IMG/VR virus record: IMGVR_UViG_3300009537_000095
Location: 1 to 31,932 of that record
Source: a virus
DNA: 31,932 nucleotides
Strand: one strand, 5' to 3'
Both the position numbers and the translations under genes were made by a program. Below are positions 2,206 to 31,854 of the stretch, piece by piece (position 1 is the first letter of the stretch; each line of letters starts with the position of its first letter). The notes beneath the pieces were generated by a model that was given only the letters and a program-made list of their open reading frames with translations, had not been told where the DNA came from and did no database searches.

Positions 2206-2670
2206 ATGGCCCTAAACGACGCAATCGGAAAAATAGCTGACCTAACAGAGGTACTGGCTCTGGGTAGTCGGACCAAGGACCTTCAGGACGAGTCCAAGAG
2301 CTTGGCCGGGCAAGGCGTCGTTGATGACCTTCCGAGCTTTGGTGGGGACAAAGCCCTGCATGCTATGGCCACCGAGAGGCTGGCCAAAAACATTGGACTG
2401 GTTCCCGCGCTGTCTATAGGCGGCATAAAGGAATTGTTAACCGGGGCTGGAAACGTGTTAGGTGGGGGGAAGTTTTTTGATCCTTCGGGATTTGACGTTC
2501 GTGACATTGAAGCAAATTTGCGCGGCGCCGGCAGAGCCGTTCAACCCTCCACCGCACAGCCGCAAACGCCAGGAGCTGGCGCGGGCGTACAAGACATACT
2601 CAGCGCCTTGGCCGGAGGGGGCGGGAACGCCCAGGAGCTCTCTCTCTTGGATGCGCTGCGGGGGCGCTGA
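2206..2670 (+). CDS. Small virion-associated protein with DILSAL motif
   Basis: 154 residues, ATG at 2206 with only a weak ribosome-binding site. The middle is glycine-rich and hydrophobic (IGGIKELLTGAGNVLGGG, about 71-88). The C-terminus carries GVQDILSALAGGGGN (about 127-141) and ends LLDALRGR. A related short motif (DI[LI]xAL) recurs in the small proteins at 6154-6648 and 8347-8922. The last base of the TGA stop is the first base of the next ATG (TGATG), so translation is coupled to the nozzle-like gene. I do not recognise a named family; a minor structural or internal virion protein is the inference from context. Confidence 0.65.
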   Translation: MALNDAIGKIADLTEVLALGSRTKDLQDESKSLAGQGVVDDLPSFGGDKALHAMATERLAKNIGLVPALSIGGIKELLTGAGNVLGGGKFFDPSGFDVRDIEANLRGAGRAVQPSTAQPQTPGAGAGVQDILSALAGGGGNAQELSLLDALRGR

Positions 2671-4460
2671 TGCCCGCGGTAGTCCAGCCTTACGTTCTCC
2701 GTCACCTGCGCGGGCGTAACGGCTCCACGCCCGAGAATATCGACGACGGCCAGTTCCAGGAGCTCCAAAACTGGTACGCCAAAGACCGGATCATCAAGCG
2801 GCGCAAGGGCGTTGTTCCCATAAGCGGCCTGGCCTACAGTGCTGCTCTCACCGGGGCCGCGGTGTATCTCCCTGGCGGCGTCGGCTACAAACTTCTACTT
2901 GGAACGGCTGACGGGCTGGCACAGTACGTCACCGCCTCTGGGTCGAGTTCCATCGTCGCCCTTTCTACCTCGCTAACCATCGCCACCGACGCGGTGGAGC
3001 GCTGGGTCATGCAGCAGTACAAAAACACCATGTACGCCCTACGCCAGGACATCGGGCTGCTCTACCGGTCTGATGGGCTCTCGGTTATGGGCACCGGCAT
3101 TGCTGCTCCGGCCACGGCAATGACCGCGGCGGAGGGCGCGGCCGGTCTTCTTGATGCCGCGGACTACGAGGCCATTGTCACGTTTTACAACGCGGCGTCT
3201 GGCGCGGAGTCCAACCCGTCCCCAGAGGTGACCGTAACCATCGGCGCTAGCAAATCCATCAACTATTCCGCCATCCCGACCAGCACCGATCCGCAGGTCA
3301 CGGCGCGTAAGATCTATCGGTCCCTCCCGGACGCGCAGGGCGAATGGTTTCACGTCCTGACAATTCTGGACAACGTCACCACATCGTTCAGTGGAGAGGA
3401 CGCGGAGCTGGCAGACATGGGTCTGCCCGCCGAGTCGGTCAACGGCATCCCGCCGGACGACCTTACGTGCTTCACCGTTCACCAGGAGCGCATGTGGGTG
3501 TCGGACGGCCTACTGCTGTATTTCTCCGAGCTCGGGCTGCCGGAATCGTTCGCCGGAACCAGCTCTCTAAACGTTCAGTCCGATGACGGATATCTCATCA
3601 AGGCGGTCGTTGACTTTGGCGAGATCCTTCTGGTAATGAAACAGAGCGGGGTCTACTTTGTCGCCGGGTCGGACGAGCAGAGCTTTTCCGTCCGCGTCCT
3701 GCACAACCGGCACGGCTGTGTGGCCAGGGACACGGTGGCCGTTGCTGAAGGGTTCGCCATGTGGTTCGGAGGTGATAACTTCTACCTCACGGATGGCAAT
3801 AGGGTAAGCGCGATCGGCAATCCCGAGGTGGTCGATCTGGTCGAGTCTATTTCCTCAGACGACTACGATCTCATGGCTGCCGAGGTAAACGTCGCGGAAG
3901 GCTGGTACATGTGCAGCATTCCCGAGAGCGGCGCGATCACAAAATGGGTGGCCTACAACTACCGCTCGGGTGACTGGCATACGATGACCTTTGATGCCGC
4001 GGTGGGAACGCCAACGTGGATGAAGCAGATTCCAGACTCTAACGGTAAGCCCGTGGTCTATGGTCCCATGCCAGCTCGCACTGGCCATATCCACCAGTTT
4101 TTCTCTGGCGCGAACGACGTTGGGTCGCCTATTGCCTGCTCGTTACGGTCCAAAAACTTTGGCTTCGCCAAAGAAGATACGATGAAGTTCATGAAGGACA
4201 TCCAGATGTTGATCTCCTCCACGGGCGTGGCCGAAGACATCGTGTTTACGCTCTATCGAGACGACGACGCCGTGGCCGAGGCGACCAAAACCTGGAACAC
4301 GTTCGGCGGGAAGATGTGGAAGCGCATACCGCTAGCCAACAACGGAACCCCGGGCTTGTTTATGTCCGTGGCCGTGAGCTATTCTGGTGACGCAGACTTC
4401 GACATCGCAGGTCTTGGCTTCAAAATCGTAGACCTTGGGCGTCAGGCGCCCGTTATTTAG
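2670..4460 (+). CDS. Tail nozzle/stabilisation-like beta-propeller protein
   Basis: 596 residues. The N-terminus (NGSTPENIDDGQFQELQNWY) is typical of phage tail proteins that open with '.G.n..n..dg.l..l.N.'. The body consists of repeated beta-strand modules, for example FTVHQERMWVSDGLLLYFS, IKAVVDFGEILLVMKQSGVYFV, VAVAEGFAMWFGGDNFYLTDG and WVAYNYRSGDW. These look like propeller blades of podoviral nozzle or P22 gp10-like stabilisation proteins that plug the tail end. It follows the adaptor gene, as expected for a short tail. Start overlaps the upstream stop (TGATG). No enzymatic motif seen. Exact family needs a profile search; tail-tube identity is moderately secure. Confidence 0.65.
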   Translation: MPAVVQPYVLRHLRGRNGSTPENIDDGQFQELQNWYAKDRIIKRRKGVVPISGLAYSAALTGAAVYLPGGVGYKLLLGTADGLAQYVTASGSSSIVALSTSLTIATDAVERWVMQQYKNTMYALRQDIGLLYRSDGLSVMGTGIAAPATAMTAAEGAAGLLDAADYEAIVTFYNAASGAESNPSPEVTVTIGASKSINYSAIPTSTDPQVTARKIYRSLPDAQGEWFHVLTILDNVTTSFSGEDAELADMGLPAESVNGIPPDDLTCFTVHQERMWVSDGLLLYFSELGLPESFAGTSSLNVQSDDGYLIKAVVDFGEILLVMKQSGVYFVAGSDEQSFSVRVLHNRHGCVARDTVAVAEGFAMWFGGDNFYLTDGNRVSAIGNPEVVDLVESISSDDYDLMAAEVNVAEGWYMCSIPESGAITKWVAYNYRSGDWHTMTFDAAVGTPTWMKQIPDSNGKPVVYGPMPARTGHIHQFFSGANDVGSPIACSLRSKNFGFAKEDTMKFMKDIQMLISSTGVAEDIVFTLYRDDDAVAEATKTWNTFGGKMWKRIPLANNGTPGLFMSVAVSYSGDADFDIAGLGFKIVDLGRQAPVI

Positions 4461-10288: not shown

Positions 10289-13200
10289 ATGTCGTTCACG
10301 TATGAGGAGCTCGTAAAGCGAGCAGGAGGCGTTCCCCTTGTCAGACCAAGCCAAGCCCAAAAAGGACAAGCACCCGCAACACCTTCGCCCAACCAAGATC
10401 TCGAAGAAGACGAAGAGAAGCGGCGAAGACTCAGCTACGAAGAATTGGTCCGTGCTAAGGGTGGGATCCCTCTCAGTAGAGATGTCCTCCGCAATGAAAG
10501 AGCGCGTACTCCAGAGGCTGCGCAACGACAAGTCACCGAAGCCAACCAGAGAACCCAAGACAGCAAGCCTGAAGTAGTCGCCGAGAGGTTTCTCACCGGC
10601 CTGAAACGTAGGGCCGAGGAGCTGCGCAAGGAGAGGGCCGCCATCTTCACAGCCAGACAGCCGGATGGAACTCTGCTGTCTGGGCAGGACCAGACCCGAG
10701 CTATCGCCAGGGTAGAAGCCGAACAGAAAAAGGTCCAGGCCATGCTCGGGTCGGTACTTGACCAGGAAATCGCTGCTGGACGAAGACCTACAAAGCTTCA
10801 GGCGGCCGGCGGATTCCTGGCTGAATCCATATCCGAGCTAGGCAGTGTTCCGTCCAAGGTCTTTGACCTACTGGGCGACGATCCCGACCTGGATCAGGCC
10901 AGGAAGATCGCTGAACTGCGCGGAACCCCTGGAGTGCGAGAGCAGGCTGACGAAAGTTTAAACAAAGAGATTGCCAAGCTCACGCCTGAGCCTGTCACCG
11001 AAGGTGAGAAGTTAACCAGGATCGCGGCCAAGCTTCCACCTTACCTTGCTCTTGGACTTGCGTCCGCTCCTGCTTCAGCCGGCGTAGCCGCCGGGCTGGA
11101 GGGCGAAATCGCCAGCCCGCTCATTAGGGAGCTGCTGGGTCAGGTCGCCCAAGAAGCCTTGATTGCCCCGACAACCTTTGGCACCATCGACGACCCTGCG
11201 GCAGCGGCGGCTGTCACGCTGGCCGGGCCCCTGGCCGGTACTGCTATTGGTAGGGTTATCGGCGCGGGCCGAGGGTCTACCAGACCGGCCACCGCAACGG
11301 CGGAAGAAGTGCTCGAAGGTGGGGTCCCGCTGGCCACGACGACAGCCAAGGAGACGGTAGAGGAAACCGTACCTCGTGCTACGCTTCCACATGCGCCCGA
11401 CATGACTGAGCTGCCCGGTGGATTCACCGTTACACAAAGCCCCAAGACCGGAACCATCGGGCTGAAGGGTCCTGCCGGCGAGAAGGTGGGGATCAGGGAA
11501 ACCGCCGACTCACTGGAGCTTGTGTCCGTTGGTAAGGGGCAATCACCCGACAGCCGAACGTCTGTCTCTGCCATGCGCGAGCTCTCGGAAGCGAAGGGTA
11601 AGCCAGTCAAGTTCGTAAGCACTAATCTCAGCCCTTCTGGCGGGAAGTTTCGCCAGCGATTGATCGACCGAGGGGAGCTCGATCCGAAGACGATGGAGCT
11701 GTCACCTCAGGCGTCGGCTCAGGCCCGAACAGAGAGAGGCGCCGCGATCGCACTTCAAGGGGAGCAGGCGACAGTAGACGCCTTTGGCCGACCACGGGTC
11801 GAGCCGATTGGTGGTGGCAAGCAGTTCGAACACGTGGCCAACGCGGGTAAGTTCAGCGACTCAACCAACATGAACCTGGAGAGAATCGACACGCCAGAGG
11901 CGGCACTCCAAGAAATTCACAACATGAGTCGAATCGAGGGTATCAACATCCGCCTGGCCCAAGGTGCTCGTCACACCTGGGAAGAGGTTGACGGAGAGGT
12001 AGTTGATATCGTGACCAACCCAGACAAGCTCCGGGCTCTGCTGGGTAAGCCTCATGGCTCGGCCTACACTGATACCGAGGCTATGGCCATCCGAGAGCTT
12101 CACGCCCGGTCCGCTGTCAGTGTTCAGCAGACCAGGGTTGGCCTCAAGGCTGGCACGCATACCGCCGAACAGCTACGTGACGTGCTGGGTGATTTCTTGG
12201 AGCTGCGCCTGCGAGCCGGCGGGGCCGCTGCCCAGGCCGGAAGAAGTTTAAACATCTTTAAAAAGATGGCCACCGGCAAGATCGAGCTGCCTCCCGGCGC
12301 CATGGACGACATAGCTGGCTACATCGATGGCCTGAGCCCTGAAGAGCTGGGCGGGTTCGCTGAGCGTATAAACCAACACGCCGGCAAAACCAAGCCGCCG
12401 AACTTCTCGGACAAGTTATACGAGTGGTACGTGAACTCTCTTGTCACGGCGTCTCACGGCGTCAACGTGCTTAGCAATGGCGCCGAGTTCACGTACAACG
12501 TAGGCAAGCGCGCTACGGCGGCGGGGCTCGATGTAGGCTTTTCTATCGGCGGTCTCCGCCGACCGCGGGAGGTGTTCTTTAGGGAGGCGTATGAGCTAGC
12601 CAGAATGAGCGGCACCGGCCAAGGGTTGAGACACGCCTGGACCAGATTTCGTACCGGCATGTCAGAAGGGCCCGCGCGGGCCTCAAAGGTCCTCGGGCAG
12701 GAAGCCATAGGAAAAACGCCAGGAGCGGGCATCGTCGAAAGAGGTGCAGGTAAAGTTCTTCGCGGCTTTGGATCGCGAGCCCTTGGGGCTGAGGACGAGT
12801 TCTTCTCGACGCTCTCCTACGTAGGCGAGTACAACGCCATGGCCTATCGCCAGGCTCTTCAGGAGGGACGCAGGGGCGCTGCTCTAAAAGAAAGAGTTGT
12901 TGAATTACTGGCCACAGAAGGAAAGCCGGGAGCTCTAGGCCCAGCCGGTCCTGGGTCTATTCATGCGCGGGCCGTCCAGGCGGCAAGGCGAAACACCTTC
13001 ACGGATGACACGCTCCTGGGACAGCTCGGGAGCAAGGTCAAGAACTTCGACGTGGCGAGGGCCGCAGGGGCCAGGAACGTTTCACTTAGGCCGGGTCGCT
13101 GGTTGGCCCCATTTACCAGCGTCTCCAGCTCAATTATGACCAAGGGAATCGAGAACAGCCCCCTTGGATTCGCTACCGTTCCTCTCCGCCGGGGGCTCGC

Positions 13201-14335
13201 GTCGCGCGGGATAGTTCAGTCCACCGGCCGGCCCCTGGCGGAAGAGTTGGCCGCCCCAACGCTGGGCACCATGATTGGGGTGACCGCCTGGTACATGCGC
13301 GAGCACGGATGGATAACCGGAAATCGCCGAGACGATTCGAACGAGAGGGCCGTGCTCTACGGGGAAGGCTGGCAGCCGAACGCACTGCACGTTGGTGACA
13401 AATATATGCCGGTCGGCCGTATTGAAACCCCCGGAACCATTCTGGTGATGGCCGTCAATGCCATTGAGGCATTTGAGGAAGGCAGAACCGAAGAAGGGTA
13501 CAGGGTCTTAACAGGCATGGCCGGAGTCATTCGAGAGCAGGCTGACGACTCTTGGATGCGCGGTATCTCTGACGTGTTAGAGGTGATCGAAAACGCGGAG
13601 ATGCGTAGCCCCGAGAAGCTGGCGGCTCGGCAGGTGGCTGCGTTCTATCCGAACATACTAAGGCGCGCCGGCAAGGTTATCGATCCAACCATCCGCCAGA
13701 CCGAGGGCTTCTCTGACACGCTACTGCGCGAGATCGACACGTTCGGCGTGGCTGAGCGCTCGGAGCCGCGCCTGGACCCGTTCGGCAGAGAGCAAGGAAC
13801 CGACAAATCTGCATTCGACCGACTCACCGGATTCTTTGGCCTACCAACTTCCACCGCCAAGAACGACCCGGTGTTGAGGGAGCACATGAGACTCGGCGCC
13901 GCACTCGGACAGGTTGGAATCACTGGCAGCCTGACCGACGACGTTGACGAGAAGGAGTTGTTTAAACAGGCGTCCCCTAGAGAGGTCACCAAGTTTCGGA
14001 AGGCTAAGGGCGCCTTCCTGTTAGAGCTGGATCAGGCCCTTATCAACAGCAGCCGCTATGCGCGGGCCGACGACAACGAGAAGATGACCATGCTTAGAAG
14101 GGCCAGGTCTATGGGGGGCAACGCCTGGAACGAGAAATGGCGGAAGGCTGGCCACCCGTTCGACGAGAGGTTAACCATGGTGGACAGCCGCATCCGCGTC
14201 AACACCTTGGCCCGCAAGATCGCACGCATCCACGACGTCAAACAATTGCAGCTCGCGGACCCTGAGAGGTTCGGCCCGGAGTTTCCCGGAGCCACCTTCG
14301 AGGACATCCTGGAGCTCGAAAGGCTCAGACAATGA
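10289..14335 (+). CDS. Large internal virion protein, putative DNA ejection protein (1348 aa)
   Basis: Largest gene in the window. The N-terminus carries a duplicated short motif: TYEELVKRAGGVPL (residues 4-17) and SYEELVRAKGGIPL (about 50-63). A hydrophobic Ala/Gly-rich stretch follows at about 250-350 (YLALGLASAPASAGVAAGL, VTLAGPLAGTAIGRVIGAG), and then a small alpha/beta segment near 385-470. The middle contains LYEWYVNSLVTASHGVNVLS and NGAEFTYNVGKRA, like the 'w.n.Ll....hgvNv.sN' segment I associate with large phage internal and polyvalent proteins. The rest is mostly helical. Size and position after three smaller internal proteins suggest the main ejection protein. No lytic transglycosylase Glu motif is obvious. 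It contains three GTTTAAAC copies. Confidence 0.65.
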   Translation: MSFTYEELVKRAGGVPLVRPSQAQKGQAPATPSPNQDLEEDEEKRRRLSYEELVRAKGGIPLSRDVLRNERARTPEAAQRQVTEANQRTQDSKPEVVAERFLTGLKRRAEELRKERAAIFTARQPDGTLLSGQDQTRAIARVEAEQKKVQAMLGSVLDQEIAAGRRPTKLQAAGGFLAESISELGSVPSKVFDLLGDDPDLDQARKIAELRGTPGVREQADESLNKEIAKLTPEPVTEGEKLTRIAAKLPPYLALGLASAPASAGVAAGLEGEIASPLIRELLGQVAQEALIAPTTFGTIDDPAAAAAVTLAGPLAGTAIGRVIGAGRGSTRPATATAEEVLEGGVPLATTTAKETVEETVPRATLPHAPDMTELPGGFTVTQSPKTGTIGLKGPAGEKVGIRETADSLELVSVGKGQSPDSRTSVSAMRELSEAKGKPVKFVSTNLSPSGGKFRQRLIDRGELDPKTMELSPQASAQARTERGAAIALQGEQATVDAFGRPRVEPIGGGKQFEHVANAGKFSDSTNMNLERIDTPEAALQEIHNMSRIEGINIRLAQGARHTWEEVDGEVVDIVTNPDKLRALLGKPHGSAYTDTEAMAIRELHARSAVSVQQTRVGLKAGTHTAEQLRDVLGDFLELRLRAGGAAAQAGRSLNIFKKMATGKIELPPGAMDDIAGYIDGLSPEELGGFAERINQHAGKTKPPNFSDKLYEWYVNSLVTASHGVNVLSNGAEFTYNVGKRATAAGLDVGFSIGGLRRPREVFFREAYELARMSGTGQGLRHAWTRFRTGMSEGPARASKVLGQEAIGKTPGAGIVERGAGKVLRGFGSRALGAEDEFFSTLSYVGEYNAMAYRQALQEGRRGAALKERVVELLATEGKPGALGPAGPGSIHARAVQAARRNTFTDDTLLGQLGSKVKNFDVARAAGARNVSLRPGRWLAPFTSVSSSIMTKGIENSPLGFATVPLRRGLASRGIVQSTGRPLAEELAAPTLGTMIGVTAWYMREHGWITGNRRDDSNERAVLYGEGWQPNALHVGDKYMPVGRIETPGTILVMAVNAIEAFEEGRTEEGYRVLTGMAGVIREQADDSWMRGISDVLEVIENAEMRSPEKLAARQVAAFYPNILRRAGKVIDPTIRQTEGFSDTLLREIDTFGVAERSEPRLDPFGREQGTDKSAFDRLTGFFGLPTSTAKNDPVLREHMRLGAALGQVGITGSLTDDVDEKELFKQASPREVTKFRKAKGAFLLELDQALINSSRYARADDNEKMTMLRRARSMGGNAWNEKWRKAGHPFDERLTMVDSRIRVNTLARKIARIHDVKQLQLADPERFGPEFPGATFEDILELERLRQ

Positions 14336-22330: not shown

Positions 22331-23023
22331 ATGAGCGGTCGGCTAACAACAAGGCCCAAACCCATCCTAGCGTGGCACTTTCTTTCCGATCGCGGGAAAT
22401 TGCGCTATGGCACTCGCAGAAAAGTCAAGGTAGGGAAGACCTATCAAGCTAAAGGCCCATTGGTAATATGCAGAAATGGGATGCATGCCAGCGAGCGAGT
22501 AATTGATGCACTCGCTTATGCCCCCGGTGCCATTGTTTGTCGGGTGGAGCTGTCTGGCGAAATCCTACGTGGCCCTGACAAATTGTGCGCTCGCAGGCGG
22601 AAAGTGACAGCCATGGCAGATGCCACGCGCGAATTGCACTTGTTCGCAATTTGGTGTGCGCGACGGGCTCTCAAGGCGGCCAGGGTTACAGATGAGCGAT
22701 CTTGGAATGCCCTGAAGGTAAAGCGGCGGTGGCTAGATGGCAAGGCCACAGGTGCCGAGTTGGTTGCTGCCTGGTATGCCGCCAAGGCTGCCGCCAGGGA
22801 TGCCGCCAGGGATGCCGCCAGGGATGCCTCCAGGGCTGCCGCATGGTCTGCCGCCAAGGCTGCCGCCAGGGATGCCGCCTGGGATGCCGCCTGGGATGCC
22901 TCCAGGACTGCTAGGGCTGGTACCAAGAAGGTTGCTGCCTTGATGGCTATCCAGGCTGCCCAGAACAAGGAACTAGAACGAAGACTCAATCGACTACTCA
23001 ACCAAACCGAAGCCAAGAGATGA
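22331..23023 (+). CDS. DUF7666-like protein with Ala-rich tandem-repeat helix
   Basis: 230 residues; ATG preceded by GGGGGAG. The N-terminal ~100 residues ([53 protein letters not shown]) match the phage/bacterial family whose core reads '...G.f.l..GlHa...'. Residues ~149-192 consist of 11 four-residue units ([12 protein letters not shown]) encoded by a 12-bp tandem repeat. These should form a long, alternating charged/Ala helix. The C-terminus is a further helix ([16 protein letters not shown]). Function of the family is unknown to me. The stop overlaps the start of a small gene at 23020. Confidence 0.65.
22775..22906 (+). repeat. 12-bp tandem repeat, 11 units, coding
   Basis: Imperfect units of type GATGCCGCCAGG (variants with AAG or TGG ends, and GCT/TAT/TCT first codons) run head to tail for 132 bp. 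The unit length keeps the reading frame and gives Ala-rich tetrapeptides. Copy number could vary by slippage. Confidence 0.85.
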
Positions 23024-26066: not shown

Positions 26067-26319
26067 AGCCCTGAAAAGGATCGAGCAGTGGACCGCACAG
26101 CCGGATCTGATGTTCGATTGGCGGTCGGACACGCTCAAGCTGGCGTGCCTGGTCCTCGAAGACATACTGAAGAATCCCCAGGGCGCCGGCCGAGCCAAGG
26201 ACCTATCTCGCATCCGCGCCGTGGCGCAGCTCCAGTCCCTTATGGTGGCCATGGAGTCTATGCGTATCAACGTGCCGATCGTCTGCCCTAACTGCGAGCA
26301 CGAGCACACGTTGAAATGA
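26053..26319 (+). CDS. Small protein before terminase, C-terminal CxxC (88 aa)
   Basis: ATG at 26053 (a longer frame to 25969 overlaps the previous gene). Sequence: MNINEALKRIEQWTA, WRSDTLKLACLVLEDIL, AVAQLQSLMVAMESM and CPNCEHEHTLK at the end, a short zinc-knuckle-like motif. It is all-helical and sits where a terminase small subunit usually lies, immediately before the ATPase gene (ATGA overlap). Sequence does not show a recognisable TerS fold, so that identity is only positional. Confidence 0.5.
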   Translation: MNINEALKRIEQWTAQPDLMFDWRSDTLKLACLVLEDILKNPQGAGRAKDLSRIRAVAQLQSLMVAMESMRINVPIVCPNCEHEHTLK

Positions 26320-27044
26320 CGGCCTCCAAGGACCGCATCGTCGGCGGGGCCATATTCGGCTCTCGCGTCTCCACGGGCGAGCTCCATCCGTCGAGACAGC
26401 TACTACTGAGCCGCATTGCCCGCGACCCATGGGCATTTATGACCGGTGTGGACCCTATCACAGAGATTCCGCTGGTCTGGACGCGTAACGAGAAGTCGAG
26501 CACCGGGAAAGACCCATTCCCACACAAGGATTATTTACGTTTATACACGCAAGCTCTTCAGACCGAGCCTGTGCTGTTCGTCCCAAAGTCTCGCCAGATG
26601 ATTATCTCGACGTGTACGCTGACTTTGGCGCTGTGGGAAATCCTCTTCAACCCGTCGTGGCGAACCATTCTCTCGAAGGTCACGGAAGACGAAGCTGAGG
26701 AGCTCCTAGAGAACAAGGTTCGCTATACCTATCGGCACCTGCCGGAGTGGATCCGTACTCGTCGGCGCATTGACGACAAGCCTAAAGGTAAGGCCGAGTG
26801 CAAGGACACGGCCAGCTATATCCTGGCCGCGGCGCAAAACGCGGCCGACAGAGAGTGTCGCGGCGGCACGGCCAACCGGGTTATAGTTGACGAGGCGTGT
26901 TATCAGGACTATACCCGGTCGATCGTTGAGGCAGGGGGACCCATGACCCAGCGCCTGGTTCTCATCTCGTCCCCAAACATCAGCTATCCCGGCGGGCGGT
27001 TCATGCGCGCTGCGATCTACGACGAGGATATGGACAATGTCTAA
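26316..27044 (+). CDS. terL: Terminase large subunit, ATPase half only
   Basis: Motor domain that powers DNA packaging. 242 residues: LFVPKSRQMIISTC is the Walker A-type loop (K91-T99, with Ile where a Gly is commonest), NRVIVDEACY the Walker B (Asp192, Glu193), and LVLISSPN the coupling motif (216-221). It stops at residue 242 shortly after GGRFMRAAIYDEDMDN, exactly where an intact terminase would enter its linker to the nuclease domain. The missing nuclease half is at 28810-29862, 1765 bases downstream. The next gene starts 8 bases before this stop. Intact TerLs of this kind run about 450-600 residues. Confidence 0.8.
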   Translation: MTASKDRIVGGAIFGSRVSTGELHPSRQLLLSRIARDPWAFMTGVDPITEIPLVWTRNEKSSTGKDPFPHKDYLRLYTQALQTEPVLFVPKSRQMIISTCTLTLALWEILFNPSWRTILSKVTEDEAEELLENKVRYTYRHLPEWIRTRRRIDDKPKGKAECKDTASYILAAAQNAADRECRGGTANRVIVDEACYQDYTRSIVEAGGPMTQRLVLISSPNISYPGGRFMRAAIYDEDMDNV

Positions 27045-27447
27045 ACGTGCTTGCTACATCGCCGGGCCCATGCGTGGCATACCGGGCTACAACGAAGCGG
27101 AGTTCGCGCGGGCCGCAAAGTTGCTCAGGTCTCAGGGGTGGATCGTCCATAACCCTGTTGAGATGGACAAACAAGACGGCGATTTTGAGCCCGGCCTGAC
27201 CGTGCAAGAGCAGGAGCGGCGCTCCACACCCGAGACGTGCCGCAAATTTGCCGGGCGTGATATCGATGTGATAGTCAACATCCTCCGGGCGGAAGACGGC
27301 GATGCGATCGTGCTTCTACCCGGGTGGAGATCCAGCGTGGGAGCGACTGCCGAGTTTCAAGTGGCTCGATGGGTAGGGCTGAGGTGGATCCTTTTGGGGG
27401 ACCCCGACACGGACGGGCTACTCGTTCAGGCAGGAAGCGATGAGTGA
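27037..27447 (+). CDS. DUF4406 (nucleoside deoxyribosyltransferase-like) protein
   Basis: 136 residues; ATG overlaps the terminase ATPase gene by 8 bases. CYIAGPMRGIPGYNEAEF and GWIVHNPVEM at the N-terminus, and IVLLPGWRSSVGATAEFQVA at the C-terminus, form the DUF4406 signature (Rossmann-like fold of nucleoside 2-deoxyribosyltransferases). Such proteins are common accessory genes in phages and may act on nucleosides or nucleotide signals; no activity is shown here. It is the first of four genes between the two terminase halves. Confidence 0.75.
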   Translation: MSKRACYIAGPMRGIPGYNEAEFARAAKLLRSQGWIVHNPVEMDKQDGDFEPGLTVQEQERRSTPETCRKFAGRDIDVIVNILRAEDGDAIVLLPGWRSSVGATAEFQVARWVGLRWILLGDPDTDGLLVQAGSDE

Positions 27448-28369
27448 AGGGGAAGCGGTGACAAAACTCCACAGTTATTCGAGCCCGTTTTTGGTGGGGC
27501 ATCAGGCGCTGCAACGTTACGAGGATCGCCCCGGTATCTTCGAAGTGGGTGTCTTCGTCGAGGAGAAGATCGATGGGAGTCAATTCTCGTTCTCGCGTGA
27601 TGGGTCAGGACTCCGCTTTCGCTCAAGAAACGCTGAGGTGTTCAAAGACGGCGCGGGGATGTTCCAACGAGGCGTGGATGCTATCGCCGAGATAGCCGAC
27701 CAGCTCCGCGATGGATGGACCTACCGTGGCGAGTACCTCATGAAGCCCAAGCACAACACGCTCTGCTATGACCGTGTGCCGGTGCGCCACGTCATTCTGT
27801 TCGATATCGAGACCCAGCCCAATGTGTTTCTCGATCCGCAGGAGCGGGCAGAAGAAGCGCACAGGCTTGGACTCGAATCGGTGCCGGTGCTGTTCTGCGG
27901 GAAGCTCACGCCGGTTGATCTAAAGGAGATGCTCGCAGGCGGAAGCGTTCTAGGCGGAAAAAGAGAGGGGCTTGTGGTAAAGCCAATCGGCCACGCGCTA
28001 TGGGGGCGCGACAAGAAAGTCCTTATGGCCAAGCTCGTAGCCGAAGACTTCAAGGAGAAGCACGAGACGGAGTGGCGCAAGTCCAATCCAACAAAAAGGG
28101 ACATCATTCAGGAAATCATAGAGACCTACAGGACGGAGCAACGGTGGCAGAAAGCTACCCAACACCTACGGGAAGCCGGAGCGCTAAAGGGTGAGCCGTC
28201 CGATATCGGGCTGCTCATGAAAGAGGTGCCGAACGACATACTTGGAGATTCGGCGTACGAGATTCGCGAGCGCCTGTTCAATCACTTCTGGAAGGAGATA
28301 TCGCGCTCTGTCACAAAAGGGCTCCCCGAATGGTACAAGGCGCGGCTGTTCAAGGAGGCGAGAGGATGA
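27440..28369 (+). CDS. RNA ligase (Rnl2-like)
   Basis: Nucleotidyltransferase that seals RNA nicks through a Lys-AMP intermediate. From the ATG at 27440 (309 residues): EEKIDGS holds the nucleophile Lys43; RGEY (96-99), FDIE (121-124), EGLVVKP (176-182) and MAKLV (196-200) match motifs III, IIIa, IV and V. A helical C-terminal domain follows, as in Rnl2. A GTG at 27458 with AAGGGGA just upstream is an alternative start. Phages use such ligases to repair tRNA cut by host defence systems. Its place inside the split terminase is unusual. ATGA overlap with the next gene. Confidence 0.8.
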   Translation: MSEGEAVTKLHSYSSPFLVGHQALQRYEDRPGIFEVGVFVEEKIDGSQFSFSRDGSGLRFRSRNAEVFKDGAGMFQRGVDAIAEIADQLRDGWTYRGEYLMKPKHNTLCYDRVPVRHVILFDIETQPNVFLDPQERAEEAHRLGLESVPVLFCGKLTPVDLKEMLAGGSVLGGKREGLVVKPIGHALWGRDKKVLMAKLVAEDFKEKHETEWRKSNPTKRDIIQEIIETYRTEQRWQKATQHLREAGALKGEPSDIGLLMKEVPNDILGDSAYEIRERLFNHFWKEISRSVTKGLPEWYKARLFKEARG

Positions 28370-28614
28370 GGAAGAAAAAAGCAGTAAAGAAGAAACAAGT
28401 AGTACAAGTACGGGTTGGTTGTTGTAGGCTCGTAGCGATTCGCAGTTCTCGTTCAACCCGATGGCGGATCATGCTCCAAGGTGCGGCTGGCAATACTGTG
28501 ACAAACGACATCTTAGATAAGGCGCTAGAGCGCCATTTCCCTATTCCTCTTTGGCAATGGCGCGAACTGGCCAAGCTAATATCACTTATGGACAAGAACA
28601 CTCCCCTTGTTTGA
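28366..28614 (+). CDS. Small basic protein (82 aa)
   Basis: ATG overlaps the RNA ligase stop (ATGA) and has AAGGAGG 7 bases upstream, so this start is preferred over an earlier in-frame ATG at 28330. The first ten residues are mostly Lys (MRKKKAVKKK). The rest has a Cys pair (VGCCRLVAI) and a helical end containing ILDKALERHFPIPLWQW. No family recognised; nucleic-acid binding is plausible from charge. Confidence 0.6.
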   Translation: MRKKKAVKKKQVVQVRVGCCRLVAIRSSRSTRWRIMLQGAAGNTVTNDILDKALERHFPIPLWQWRELAKLISLMDKNTPLV

Positions 28615-28633
28615 GCCAAAAGAAAGAAAAAAA

Positions 28634-28828
28634 ATGACCACAGAAGAGACCGAGCTGCGCGCCGAGGCGCTGAATCGATTCTCGGAAGATCCTGAGTTCG
28701 AGGCAGGCATGGTGGAGTTTCTCTATCGGATCTACAAGCACAAAGACGCGCCTCGAATACTTGATCGCCAGGCAATCCGCACCCCTTTTGGAACCTTAAA
28801 TCTGGTGGGATGGATAAGAAACGATTGA
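28634..28828 (+). CDS. Small hypothetical protein (64 aa)
   Basis: ATG at 28634; the TTG at 28607 is a weaker alternative. Reads EETELRAEALNRFSED, then GMVEFLYRIYKHKDAPRIL and ends NLVGWIRND. Helical N-terminus, no family recognised. Its end overlaps the terminase nuclease start by 19 bases. Confidence 0.5.
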   Translation: MTTEETELRAEALNRFSEDPEFEAGMVEFLYRIYKHKDAPRILDRQAIRTPFGTLNLVGWIRND

Positions 28829-29862
28829 CGGGAACCAAAGATAAGCCGCTCCGACCGTGCGAAGGCGTGCGCCAGTGGACCACCTCGAAGGGCTGGTCCG
28901 TCTTTGAGATACATTACACCGCGGATCCCGACAAGAGATCCGAGGAGTGGAAACAATCGGCGCTCGACTCTATGCCCGATCTCCAGTCATACAACCGAGA
29001 GTTCGAGATCGATTGGACCAGCACCACTGGCCTGGCGTTCTATCAGGCGTTCTACAAGAAGAACATCGAGGAGCCTGGCTACTATGTTCGCGTACAAAAC
29101 GTTCCGGCCCCACCTGCCGTTATTTATCGAGGGTTCGACTTCGGCTTTCGGAGGCCGGCCTGTGTTTGGGCCTACCAGGATCGAGACGGGCGCCTGCGGG
29201 TGCTTCGGGAGTTCTCGCCTCAAAACATGGATGTCTACGAGTTCCGTGACACGGTTCGAGCCATCTCTGGCGAGATCGGTCTTGACGACAAAAGTTTAGA
29301 CAACAAGCCCAAAGCACAAGAAACCTTGAATACCCTTCATCCAGGCGTGCCATGGTTTTCGAAAGATCACCAGTTCGTGGACTTCTGTGGCGTCGAGGCT
29401 CGCAAGGTGAACACCCTAACCGGAGACCATGGCGAGATCAACGACTACGAGGTGATGCGCAGTGGCGGCATAGACCTGCATATTGTTAACCAGCGCGTCT
29501 CGGCCGGCACCTATATTATCCGCCAGCTCATGAAAGATTACGGCGGGTCGCCGAACTTGTTGATCGATCCAACGTGCGCGGTGATCATCCGCGGCCTAGC
29601 CGGAGGCTTAACCTTTGGCTCTGGCACAAAGTCAACGCCTTTGGACGATGCGATTGCGCCGCACCCAGAGCTGTCTCATCTTCACGACGGACTGCGGTAT
29701 CTAGTCTGCGGCGTCTTCAACGTTGCCGACATGCAGAAGGTCATCAACCAGGGTGTGGCGCGGGCCCAGAAGAGATCGGTCCACCCAAGCAAAAAGGAGC
29801 CCCCCAGGTATGGCCCCACGGACGACCTGGAAGACTTGCCTTTTTGGGCTTCCCTGGAGTAG
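28810..29862 (+). CDS. terL: Terminase large subunit, nuclease half only
   Basis: 350 residues. The start (ATG at 28810) precedes the family linker: GWSVFEIHYTADPDKR, EEWKQSALDSM and YNREFEIDWTSTTGLAFY. The RNase H-like nuclease follows: IYRGFDFGF (Asp110), FVDFCGVEAR (Asp191) and LHDGLRYLV (Asp293), the three acidic positions that bind metals. No ATPase motifs. Upstream in frame there is a stop at 28762 and no better start, so it cannot simply be read through from the ATPase gene. Together with the 242-residue ATPase half it makes about 592 residues, a normal TerL length. Confidence 0.8.
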   Translation: MDKKRLTGTKDKPLRPCEGVRQWTTSKGWSVFEIHYTADPDKRSEEWKQSALDSMPDLQSYNREFEIDWTSTTGLAFYQAFYKKNIEEPGYYVRVQNVPAPPAVIYRGFDFGFRRPACVWAYQDRDGRLRVLREFSPQNMDVYEFRDTVRAISGEIGLDDKSLDNKPKAQETLNTLHPGVPWFSKDHQFVDFCGVEARKVNTLTGDHGEINDYEVMRSGGIDLHIVNQRVSAGTYIIRQLMKDYGGSPNLLIDPTCAVIIRGLAGGLTFGSGTKSTPLDDAIAPHPELSHLHDGLRYLVCGVFNVADMQKVINQGVARAQKRSVHPSKKEPPRYGPTDDLEDLPFWASLE

Positions 29863-29871: not shown

Positions 29872-31854
29872 ATGGCTTCCCTTATAGAGCGCTCCGTCAC
29901 CCAGGAGATCGCCATGCCGGGCAACGAGGGGGTCGATTTCGACGCCAAAAACGACCCACGCGGCATGGCCGGCGAAGATACGCTCAAGAGGTTTGAGTAC
30001 TATGCTGACTCCCTCAAGAACCACTTCGAGGACGCGGAGAAGTGGTGGAAAATGTATCTGCTCATACGCAAGCAGAGCTTCAAGCCGTGGGAGTATTGGC
30101 GCAACAAGATCACGACCGCGCATCCAAACACCGTGATAGAGGTGTCCACGGCCCATCTGGTCTCTCAGGTGTTCTCGCACAGTCCGCCCATTGCCCCCGA
30201 GAGCACGATGGCTATCGGCTCCGAGGCTCTAGAGGCTCGCATGACCAAGTGGTTCGCCTACCAGCTTCGCATGAACAAGTTTAGACGCGAGCTCGAGCTA
30301 TTTGTTCGCGAGATGCTCGTGCAGTCCATTGCCGTCAGGAAAAATGCGCTGATCGAGCGGTCCAGGGAGATTATCTTCTTTCCTGGGGAGGCTCTGGCCG
30401 AGGAGTTCGACGAAAAACTACGCACCGTGGTCATGGAAATGGGCGCCAAGCCACCGCAGCCTGAGGAGTTCGAGGATAAGCAGTCCTTTATGCAGGCATT
30501 TGAGGAATTTCGCAAGGCCGTTAACGGAGCGTCGGACATTGGCCTCCCAGAGATGCCGGTTGCCGGGCCCAGGAAGATTACTCAGTTCAAGGGCGCGGGC
30601 TGGAAGCGAATCTCAATGTTCAACTTCTTTTACGACCCCGCCGTCTCGCACGACGAAGCCGAAGACTACATCCTGGCGTCCAGTGCTGATGAAAAGTGGG
30701 TGCGCAAAAACGCCATGGGAGAGAGCTCCCCGTTCGACCCTGACATGGTGGAGCGAGCCCTGGCCAACGGAACAAAAGAGCGTGGTGACATGTTCAACGC
30801 GCAGACCGGAGGCAACCAGTTCGAGGAGCGTCTGGCGCGGGCCCTATCGTCATCCAGCGTAGACTCAGGTAGAGAACATCCAGGCAAAAAGAAGCCGATC
30901 ATTCTCCTGGAGCACTACTACCCAGCGAGCAAAGTCCCATACCGAGTGGTGCTGAACGGCCTCTGTATAAACAGACGGAAGACCAACCCGTTCAACCACG
31001 GTGACTTTCCGTTCACGATCGCCACCAATGCCAACGTGCCGTTCATCTCCAGCGGTATTTCGGAGCTGATGCCCGGGGAGTCGCTCTTCAGGGAGACCAA
31101 CAATCTGCGCAGTCTGACTTCGGACGGTGTACTCCTCTCCGTCCTACCAATTTTCTCGCGTATACGTGAGTCCGGCTTGACGGACCTGGCCAAGTTCGTC
31201 GTACCTGGTGCCATCCTGGATTCCGCCCGGGGAAGTAGGGCCATCGAGCAGGTGTCGAAAGTGACCCCGCCGGACACCCTGCGCCACCTCGCGGAGCTGC
31301 GCACCGAAATAGAAGACGCCACCGGCACGTACCCCCAGGCCCGCGGAGCCATAGGCCCAACCAGCGTGACGGCCACGCAGACCGAGCGCAGCTTTCAGGG
31401 CTTGGCCGTCAGGAACCAGCTAAAGCTGCACCGACTGGAGTCGGACCTGTCTACGCTACCGCCTCAATGGCTGTCTATCGCGTACCAGTTTCTTGACGAC
31501 AAGGATATTTCGAGTTTAAACAAATTGCTCGTCAAGGAGCTGACGTCTCAGTACTCCTTGGAAGACTTTTCCCAGGCGATCGGCATGGACTGGGCGTTTC
31601 GGGCGAGCAACATCGTGGCCAACAAAGAGCTTCAGATCTCGAACCTGAAGGACCTGTTAACCATCGGGGTCAACGCCTTCGCGGCCCAGCCAACGAAACC
31701 GGTCTCGTTCGATCGTCTGTACCTGGCCATCGTGGAGAAGACCGATCCAGACCTGGCCGAGCTCATCAAGACCACGCCGGAGGAGGCCCAGCAGCAGCAG
31801 TTGGAGGCCCAGGCGGCCGCCGAGGCCGGCGCGGGCCCCGAGGCATCCGTTTGA
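29872..31854 (+). CDS. Portal protein
   Basis: 660 residues, within the range for podoviral portals. The N-terminus (LKRFEYYADSLKNHFEDAEK then WWKMYLLIRKQSFKPWEYW) is typical of head-tail connecting proteins. So are KNALIERSREIIFFPGEALA and the region NNLRSLTSDGVLLSVLPIF ahead of the long C-terminal helices (ELRTEIEDATGTYPQ, SVTATQTERSFQGL). A Gln/Ala-rich C-terminal tail (EEAQQQQLEAQAAAEAGA) is probably flexible. It forms the dodecameric DNA gate to which the terminase docks, consistent with its position right after the terminase nuclease gene. Confidence 0.75.
   Translation: MASLIERSVTQEIAMPGNEGVDFDAKNDPRGMAGEDTLKRFEYYADSLKNHFEDAEKWWKMYLLIRKQSFKPWEYWRNKITTAHPNTVIEVSTAHLVSQVFSHSPPIAPESTMAIGSEALEARMTKWFAYQLRMNKFRRELELFVREMLVQSIAVRKNALIERSREIIFFPGEALAEEFDEKLRTVVMEMGAKPPQPEEFEDKQSFMQAFEEFRKAVNGASDIGLPEMPVAGPRKITQFKGAGWKRISMFNFFYDPAVSHDEAEDYILASSADEKWVRKNAMGESSPFDPDMVERALANGTKERGDMFNAQTGGNQFEERLARALSSSSVDSGREHPGKKKPIILLEHYYPASKVPYRVVLNGLCINRRKTNPFNHGDFPFTIATNANVPFISSGISELMPGESLFRETNNLRSLTSDGVLLSVLPIFSRIRESGLTDLAKFVVPGAILDSARGSRAIEQVSKVTPPDTLRHLAELRTEIEDATGTYPQARGAIGPTSVTATQTERSFQGLAVRNQLKLHRLESDLSTLPPQWLSIAYQFLDDKDISSLNKLLVKELTSQYSLEDFSQAIGMDWAFRASNIVANKELQISNLKDLLTIGVNAFAAQPTKPVSFDRLYLAIVEKTDPDLAELIKTTPEEAQQQQLEAQAAAEAGAGPEASV

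Follow-up and report, generated by a model that had tools for sequence, protein, structure and literature searches.

Large terminase subunits (TerLs) that are encoded in more than one piece have been described before. In Arthrobacter phages of cluster AY, which are cultured, the two terminase domains are encoded by consecutive genes (PMC11920828, PMC12820723). In Jug phages, terL occurs in two to three pieces that are joined by group I intron splicing, for which there is evidence at the RNA level (PMC12363816). When gp17 of phage T4 was artificially cut at the linker, ATPase and nuclease activities were kept and translocation was lost (PMC3012670), and activities were also retained apart in other work on domain separation in this protein (PMC9958956). 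Here we describe a TerL in a stretch of 31,932 bases, the linear IMG/VR virus record IMGVR_UViG_3300009537_000095 (hereafter the window), where an ATPase half and a nuclease half are encoded on the same strand with four genes in between. The pair (26316-27044 and 28810-29862) is in all probability a genuine two-gene TerL, one that is stably kept across a broad lineage of uncultivated phages.

The locus resembles gp2/gp3 of the cluster AY phage BillyTP in having two genes for the large terminase, one for its ATPase and one for its nuclease. The BillyTP cut, however, is at the linker, immediately ahead of nuclease motif I (the first residues of gp3 are LPNPPDGTAICLGFDGS), and the lid stays with the ATPase, unlike the arrangement predicted for the window. 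The BillyTP genes are consecutive with a 17-nucleotide (nt) overlap, whereas the halves in the window are separated by four genes. Furthermore, there was no significant match by hidden Markov model (HMM) or hhalign between BillyTP gp2/gp3 and the split family; the BillyTP nuclease matches PF20441, and the TerLs are unrelated. T4 gp17 (3CPE, 2O0H) is homologous to the ATPase half and has the same fold, but it is one chain, and the cut in the window falls about 60 residues earlier than the T4 linker cut, before the lid. Likewise, D6E TerL (5OE8) and RuvC/RNase H-type nucleases align with the nuclease half and the lid, but D6E is a single chain. The terminases of Jug and of the split family are both in pieces; in the latter no intron was found, and the pieces can be in reversed order. 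A two-gene TerL is already known from cluster AY, and what differs here is the cut before the lid, in an unrelated TerL whose genes lie apart. In the open-access papers that we searched, this lineage is not described.

Identity of the halves and place of the cut

The features of the two halves are as follows, where the fractions given for the nuclease aspartates are counts among split-family nuclease halves.

26316-27044, + strand: TerL ATPase half, P0001, 242 amino acids (aa), with KSRQ, DE and SSPN; stop about 21 residues past the coupling motif (open reading frame [ORF], motifs, profile, model)
26586-26612, + strand: Walker A-like KSRQMIIST, P0001 residues 91-99, including K91 and R93 (family alignment)
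26889-26894, + strand: Walker B and catalytic D192-E193 of P0001 (family alignment)
26967-26978, + strand: coupling motif SSPN, P0001 residues 218-221 (family alignment)
28810-29862, + strand: TerL nuclease half, P0002, 350 aa; predicted last ATPase strands, lid, linker and RNase H nuclease
28867-29004, + strand: putative ATPase-domain part at the P0002 N terminus, with strands 20-24 and 30-34, HYTADP motif and lid helices 45-54 and 58-65 (profile alignments, AlphaFold2 [AF2] model)
29137-29139, + strand: nuclease Asp110, in motif RGFDFG (51/51)
29380-29382, + strand: nuclease Asp191 (50/51)
29686-29688, + strand: nuclease Asp293 (43/51)

A reading of the sequence alone had proposed that these two ORFs, each with its own start, are a divided terminase. 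Both have their own ATG and stop, and the motifs which that reading named (KSRQMIIST, DE, SSPN, and D110, D191 and D293 of P0002) lie where it had placed them. A profile scan of the window returned a single ATPase match and a single nuclease match. While TerL Pfam models matched neither protein, P0001 matches a terminase PHROG at 3.6e-8 and P0002 matches another weakly (0.004). The family profile of the ATPase half matches T4 gp17 at 6.5e-25, and the AF2 model of P0001 (predicted local distance difference test score of 90) has the gp17 ATPase fold (Foldseek 2o0h, E 7.5e-11, template modeling score 0.70). The family profile of P0002 matches D6E TerL, and its AF2 model gives fold matches to TerL nucleases that are weaker than those of P0001 to gp17.

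Conservation within the family follows the same motifs. K91, R93, and E193 are invariant in 46 ATPase halves, with D192 in 45/46 and S218 in 42/46. In the family alignment of nuclease halves, HY[ST]ADP, W47, and E64, all near the N terminus, are almost invariant. Between them the two proteins carry the marks of a TerL, that is, Walker A, Walker B with its catalytic Glu, the coupling motif, and the Asp/Glu triad of the RNase H fold, in one copy each and beside a portal-like gene. They depart from other TerLs in that the two domains do not share one polypeptide.

The sequence-only reading also held that the break falls exactly at the domain boundary, and in this it erred. We take the gp17 ATPase domain to extend to about residue 360, and the profile match of the ATPase half covers gp17 residues 103-301 (3ezk numbering). 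The crystallized gp17 ATPase domain in 2o0h/2o0j is 357-360 residues long. On the other side of the cut, the profile alignment of the nuclease half to D6E spans residues 194-418, and the lid of D6E TerL runs into the linker at 230-241 (PMC5727402). In the AF2 model of P0002, strands at 20-24 and 30-34 and helices at 45-54 and 58-65 are followed by the first nuclease strand at 104. Together with the confident P0001 core, the gp17 and D6E alignments and the P0002 model put both the final ATPase strand(s) and the lid downstream of the cut. By this evidence, the cut is predicted to sit inside the ATPase domain, past the coupling motif and about 60 residues ahead of the ATPase/nuclease boundary (gp17 about 301 versus about 360; D6E 194 versus linker 230-241), and the last ATPase strand(s), lid, and linker are assigned to the nuclease protein. 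The ATPase tail after DE (median 48 aa) and the nuclease head (median 27 aa) add up to the spacing in fused relatives (58-84), so no TerL sequence is missing at the cut.

Distribution and history of the split

Scans with single proteins (P0001 and P0002 against viral contigs; P0002 against genome contigs) found no relatives. Searching for nuclease motif I as a degenerate DNA pattern (RG[FW]DFG[FY]RxPA) identified 23 loci, 14 of which have the same two-gene arrangement. An alignment scan with the nuclease half returned 251 relatives, 80 of them kept, and a scan with an alignment of the window clade added more. The first alignment scan with the N-terminal half drew T4-like TerLs only, nearly all intact, and these served as outgroup and control. 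Loci were classified with HMMs of both halves, and clusters were collapsed at 90% C-domain identity.

The split is not unique to the window. Among 66 clusters with both halves, 50 are split in the usual order, 7 are split in reversed order, and 9 are fused; that is, the same split was found in 57/66 clusters, and 6 further clusters have the nuclease half alone on a fragment. The sequence-only reading held that two proteins acting in trans in one packaging motor would be unusual; two-gene TerLs of another sort have been reported earlier. The distance from the ATPase stop to the nuclease domain, which is 1796 nt in the window, is below 150 nt in 17 of the same-order clusters, 150-500 nt in 15, and at least 500 nt in 18, with a maximum of 3978 nt. 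In L118 and L119, the sister contigs of the window, the nuclease gene comes first, 3.4-3.7 kb ahead of the ATPase gene, and a portal-like gene lies between the two; reversed order also occurs in a separate second clade (L215, L227, L229, L234, and L251). Intervening genes vary by lineage and include short ORFs as well as genes that, read from sequence, are DNA methyltransferase-like, glycosyltransferase-like, and phosphoesterase-like.

Each half-profile matches exactly once in 21/21 whole contigs (7.7-50.9 kb). No second TerL above the PF03237 cut-off was found in the 21 contigs checked, where every PF03237 signal was below the cut-off and fell on an ATPase half. When 45 loci of other TerL families were put through the same pipeline as a control, they came out as intact ORFs in which the nuclease domain follows an ATPase of a different type. 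The split proposed from the window is thus real, recurring in independent contigs from many metagenomes, in either order and with one copy per half. At the sensitivity of our searches, none of 50,697 phage records proved to be an isolate with this split, the matches examined being intact TerLs, and a scan of prokaryote genomes with a tight family alignment found no relative and hence no host.

Both halves are under purifying selection. The ratio of nonsynonymous to synonymous substitution rates, which is unusable where synonymous sites are saturated, was 0.02-0.06 in both halves of close pairs (L096 versus L106 and L112) and 0.19-0.32 in more distant pairs with unsaturated synonymous sites. 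Distances in the ATPase and nuclease halves co-vary (r 0.76, 0/2000 permutations), as those of any linked pair should. Rooting the ATPase-half tree on 13 T4-like TerLs gives the family as a single clade (support 96). The first branch is the window clade (the window, L117, L118, and L119; support 97), whose members are all split; fused proteins occur as tips scattered over the tree. Well supported branches of concatenated trees force at least six changes between split and fused, and two in gene order. The most economical reading of these sequences would be one ancient split followed by about seven re-fusions.

Alternatively, the same distribution could reflect many independent splits at one weak point, for which we see perhaps one chance in a few. 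Split and fused tips are intermixed, the trees force the changes noted above, and overlapping gene pairs could toggle through one indel. Yet the first branch is split throughout, fused proteins are nested tips on a tree rooted with intact TerLs, and the position of the break is constant.

Several loci from these searches deserve mention in their own right. L124 (2402-3979), and also L195, has an apparent intein in the ATPase half just before the Walker B DE (...SSSVL|C...HN|CDEMAF...), in which case an already split terminase gene also hosts a mobile element. Long TerL ORFs of 790-851 aa with a nuclease domain (L249:3757-6129, L250:1999-4371, L209:196-2751, L210:290-2782, and L247:6237-8705) could contain inteins or extra domains. 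In the T4-like control set, three TerLs lie in two consecutive or overlapping ORFs (L034:183-1674, L053:3692-5267, and L066:772-2366), which may reflect a frameshift, an intron, or a real split. Finally, the protein encoded between the halves at L191:3106-3612 looks by eye like recombination endonuclease VII or an HNH-type enzyme (CxxC pairs, HNH-like motif) and is a possible homing endonuclease beside a split terminase.

A proposed single motor from two chains

Our evidence supports the view that the TerL products would have to act as separate chains, and we infer that both chains form one motor, acting in trans. P0001 would be the ATP-binding core up to the coupling motif. P0002 would supply the strand(s) that finish the ATPase sheet, together with the lid ("transmission"), linker, and nuclease/DNA-translocation domain. 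By docking on P0001, P0002 would complete the sheet and close the lid over the ATP site, and in the ring at the portal the pair would take the place of a single TerL subunit, translocating and cutting DNA. With lid and nuclease on one chain, the power stroke would still be covalent from lid to nuclease. Retention of this link may be why the natural cut is tolerated when the T4 linker cut is not.

Put most broadly, we judge it somewhat better than even that this is an ancient and diverse lineage with an obligate two-subunit motor, one protein being the ATP-binding core and the other, the translocating subunit with lid, linker, and nuclease, completing the ATPase in trans; the split would predate the radiation of the lineage and have been undone by several fusions, and the lineage would be scored as terminase-less since the halves fall below Pfam TerL cut-offs.

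An argument can be made against a two-gene motor on several grounds. In 17/50 same-order splits the halves overlap or are separated by less than 150 nt, and at such places frameshifting or an indel in the sequencing could join the halves or part them. Split members seeded the contig set, so that the ratio of split to fused is not a population estimate. The trees were made by a quick method (Shimodaira-Hasegawa-like approximate likelihood ratio test only) with weak deep nodes, and their root hangs on a distant T4-like outgroup. The fold search with P0002 was dominated by nuclease matches, the strand and lid assignment coming from profile alignment and the AF2 model. Finally, the lineage is known here through metagenome sequences and predicted single-chain models rather than an isolate.

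Other accounts of the two products fare less well. The two may work apart: the ATPase half, using another lid, would drive packaging by itself in the manner of phi29-like motors, and the nuclease half would serve only to mature DNA ends. Isolated T4 domains do retain their ATPase and nuclease activities separately (PMC3012670, PMC9958956), and the genes can be far apart and in either order. We nevertheless consider this improbable, as the ATPase half is without the last strand(s) and lid; the nuclease half carries these, conserved, at its N-terminal end, and the core looks incomplete alone.

It is less probable still that the halves are rejoined into one chain by splicing, whether through a group I intron, a split intein, or trans-splicing. 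Such a process has its precedent in the Jug phages, and an RNA ligase gene sits between the halves in the window. Against it, the window gave no match to Rfam group I/II introns, with a threshold for the region as loose as E 10; each half has its own start and stop; the ATPase tail and nuclease head are too short for intein halves, with no extra sequence at their inner ends; reversed gene order in two clades rules out cis-splicing there; and the intervening genes vary by lineage.

An assembly chimera or a pseudogenized terminase confined to this contig is scarcely credible, for although the window is a single linear record without reads, the same split occurs in many contigs of separate metagenomes, including near-identical pairs in several samples, and both halves are conserved under purifying selection. 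At the level of the lineage, a chimera is refuted by recurrence in independent contigs with either gene order and one copy per half. The occurrence of either gene order, together with differing intervening genes, leaves no room for a chimera and makes cis-splicing an untenable account of the family.

Gene neighborhood and implications

The genes around the two halves are the following.

27037-27447, + strand: DUF4406 / nucleoside 2-deoxyribosyltransferase-like gene (PF14359 5e-17; phrog_355 9.5e-20)
27440-28369, + strand: RNA ligase gene (PF09414 3e-15; phrog_548 4e-25)
28366-28614, + strand: small ORF with basic N terminus, no clear homolog (ORF call; family searches)
28634-28828, + strand: small ORF, no homolog, overlapping the start of the nuclease half (ORF call; family searches)
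29872-31854, + strand: portal-like protein, next gene after the nuclease half (20% identical to the protein that follows TerL in L002)

The four genes that separate the halves form one operon with tight overlaps. The start of the DUF4406 gene overlaps the stop of the ATPase half (ATGTCTAA), and the 28366-28614 ORF has an ATGA overlap with the RNA ligase stop. The presence of four genes here had been noted from sequence; two are firm by homology (DUF4406 and RNA ligase), while the others are small ORFs without clear homologs. The nearest deposited phage homologs of the RNA ligase are about 24-30% identical, the best being in Bacillus and Brevibacillus phages.

Elsewhere in the window, matches to PHROG "internal virion protein" families at 2670-4460 and 10289-14335 suggest a podovirus-like virion. 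No capsid gene was identified in the window, so the contig is probably incomplete. The ORF at 22331-23023 has a long, repetitive, alanine-rich C-terminal region, and its antisense strand is open for 201 codons. A scan for relatives with a tail gene of the window gave no matches.

The T4 literature holds that ATPase and nuclease must share a chain for translocation. A natural and widespread split at another point makes that question testable, and lets one ask which covalent link matters, core to lid or lid to nuclease, in a motor whose two parts can be mixed and can each be mutated and titrated on its own. As a hallmark gene, TerL also serves to find and classify phages. Given that the window has no TerL Pfam match and that 0/21 contigs pass the PF03237 cut-off, the lineage may be under-counted or mis-filed. 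More generally, the phenomenon extends far beyond one contig, to a large and old group of uncultured phages.
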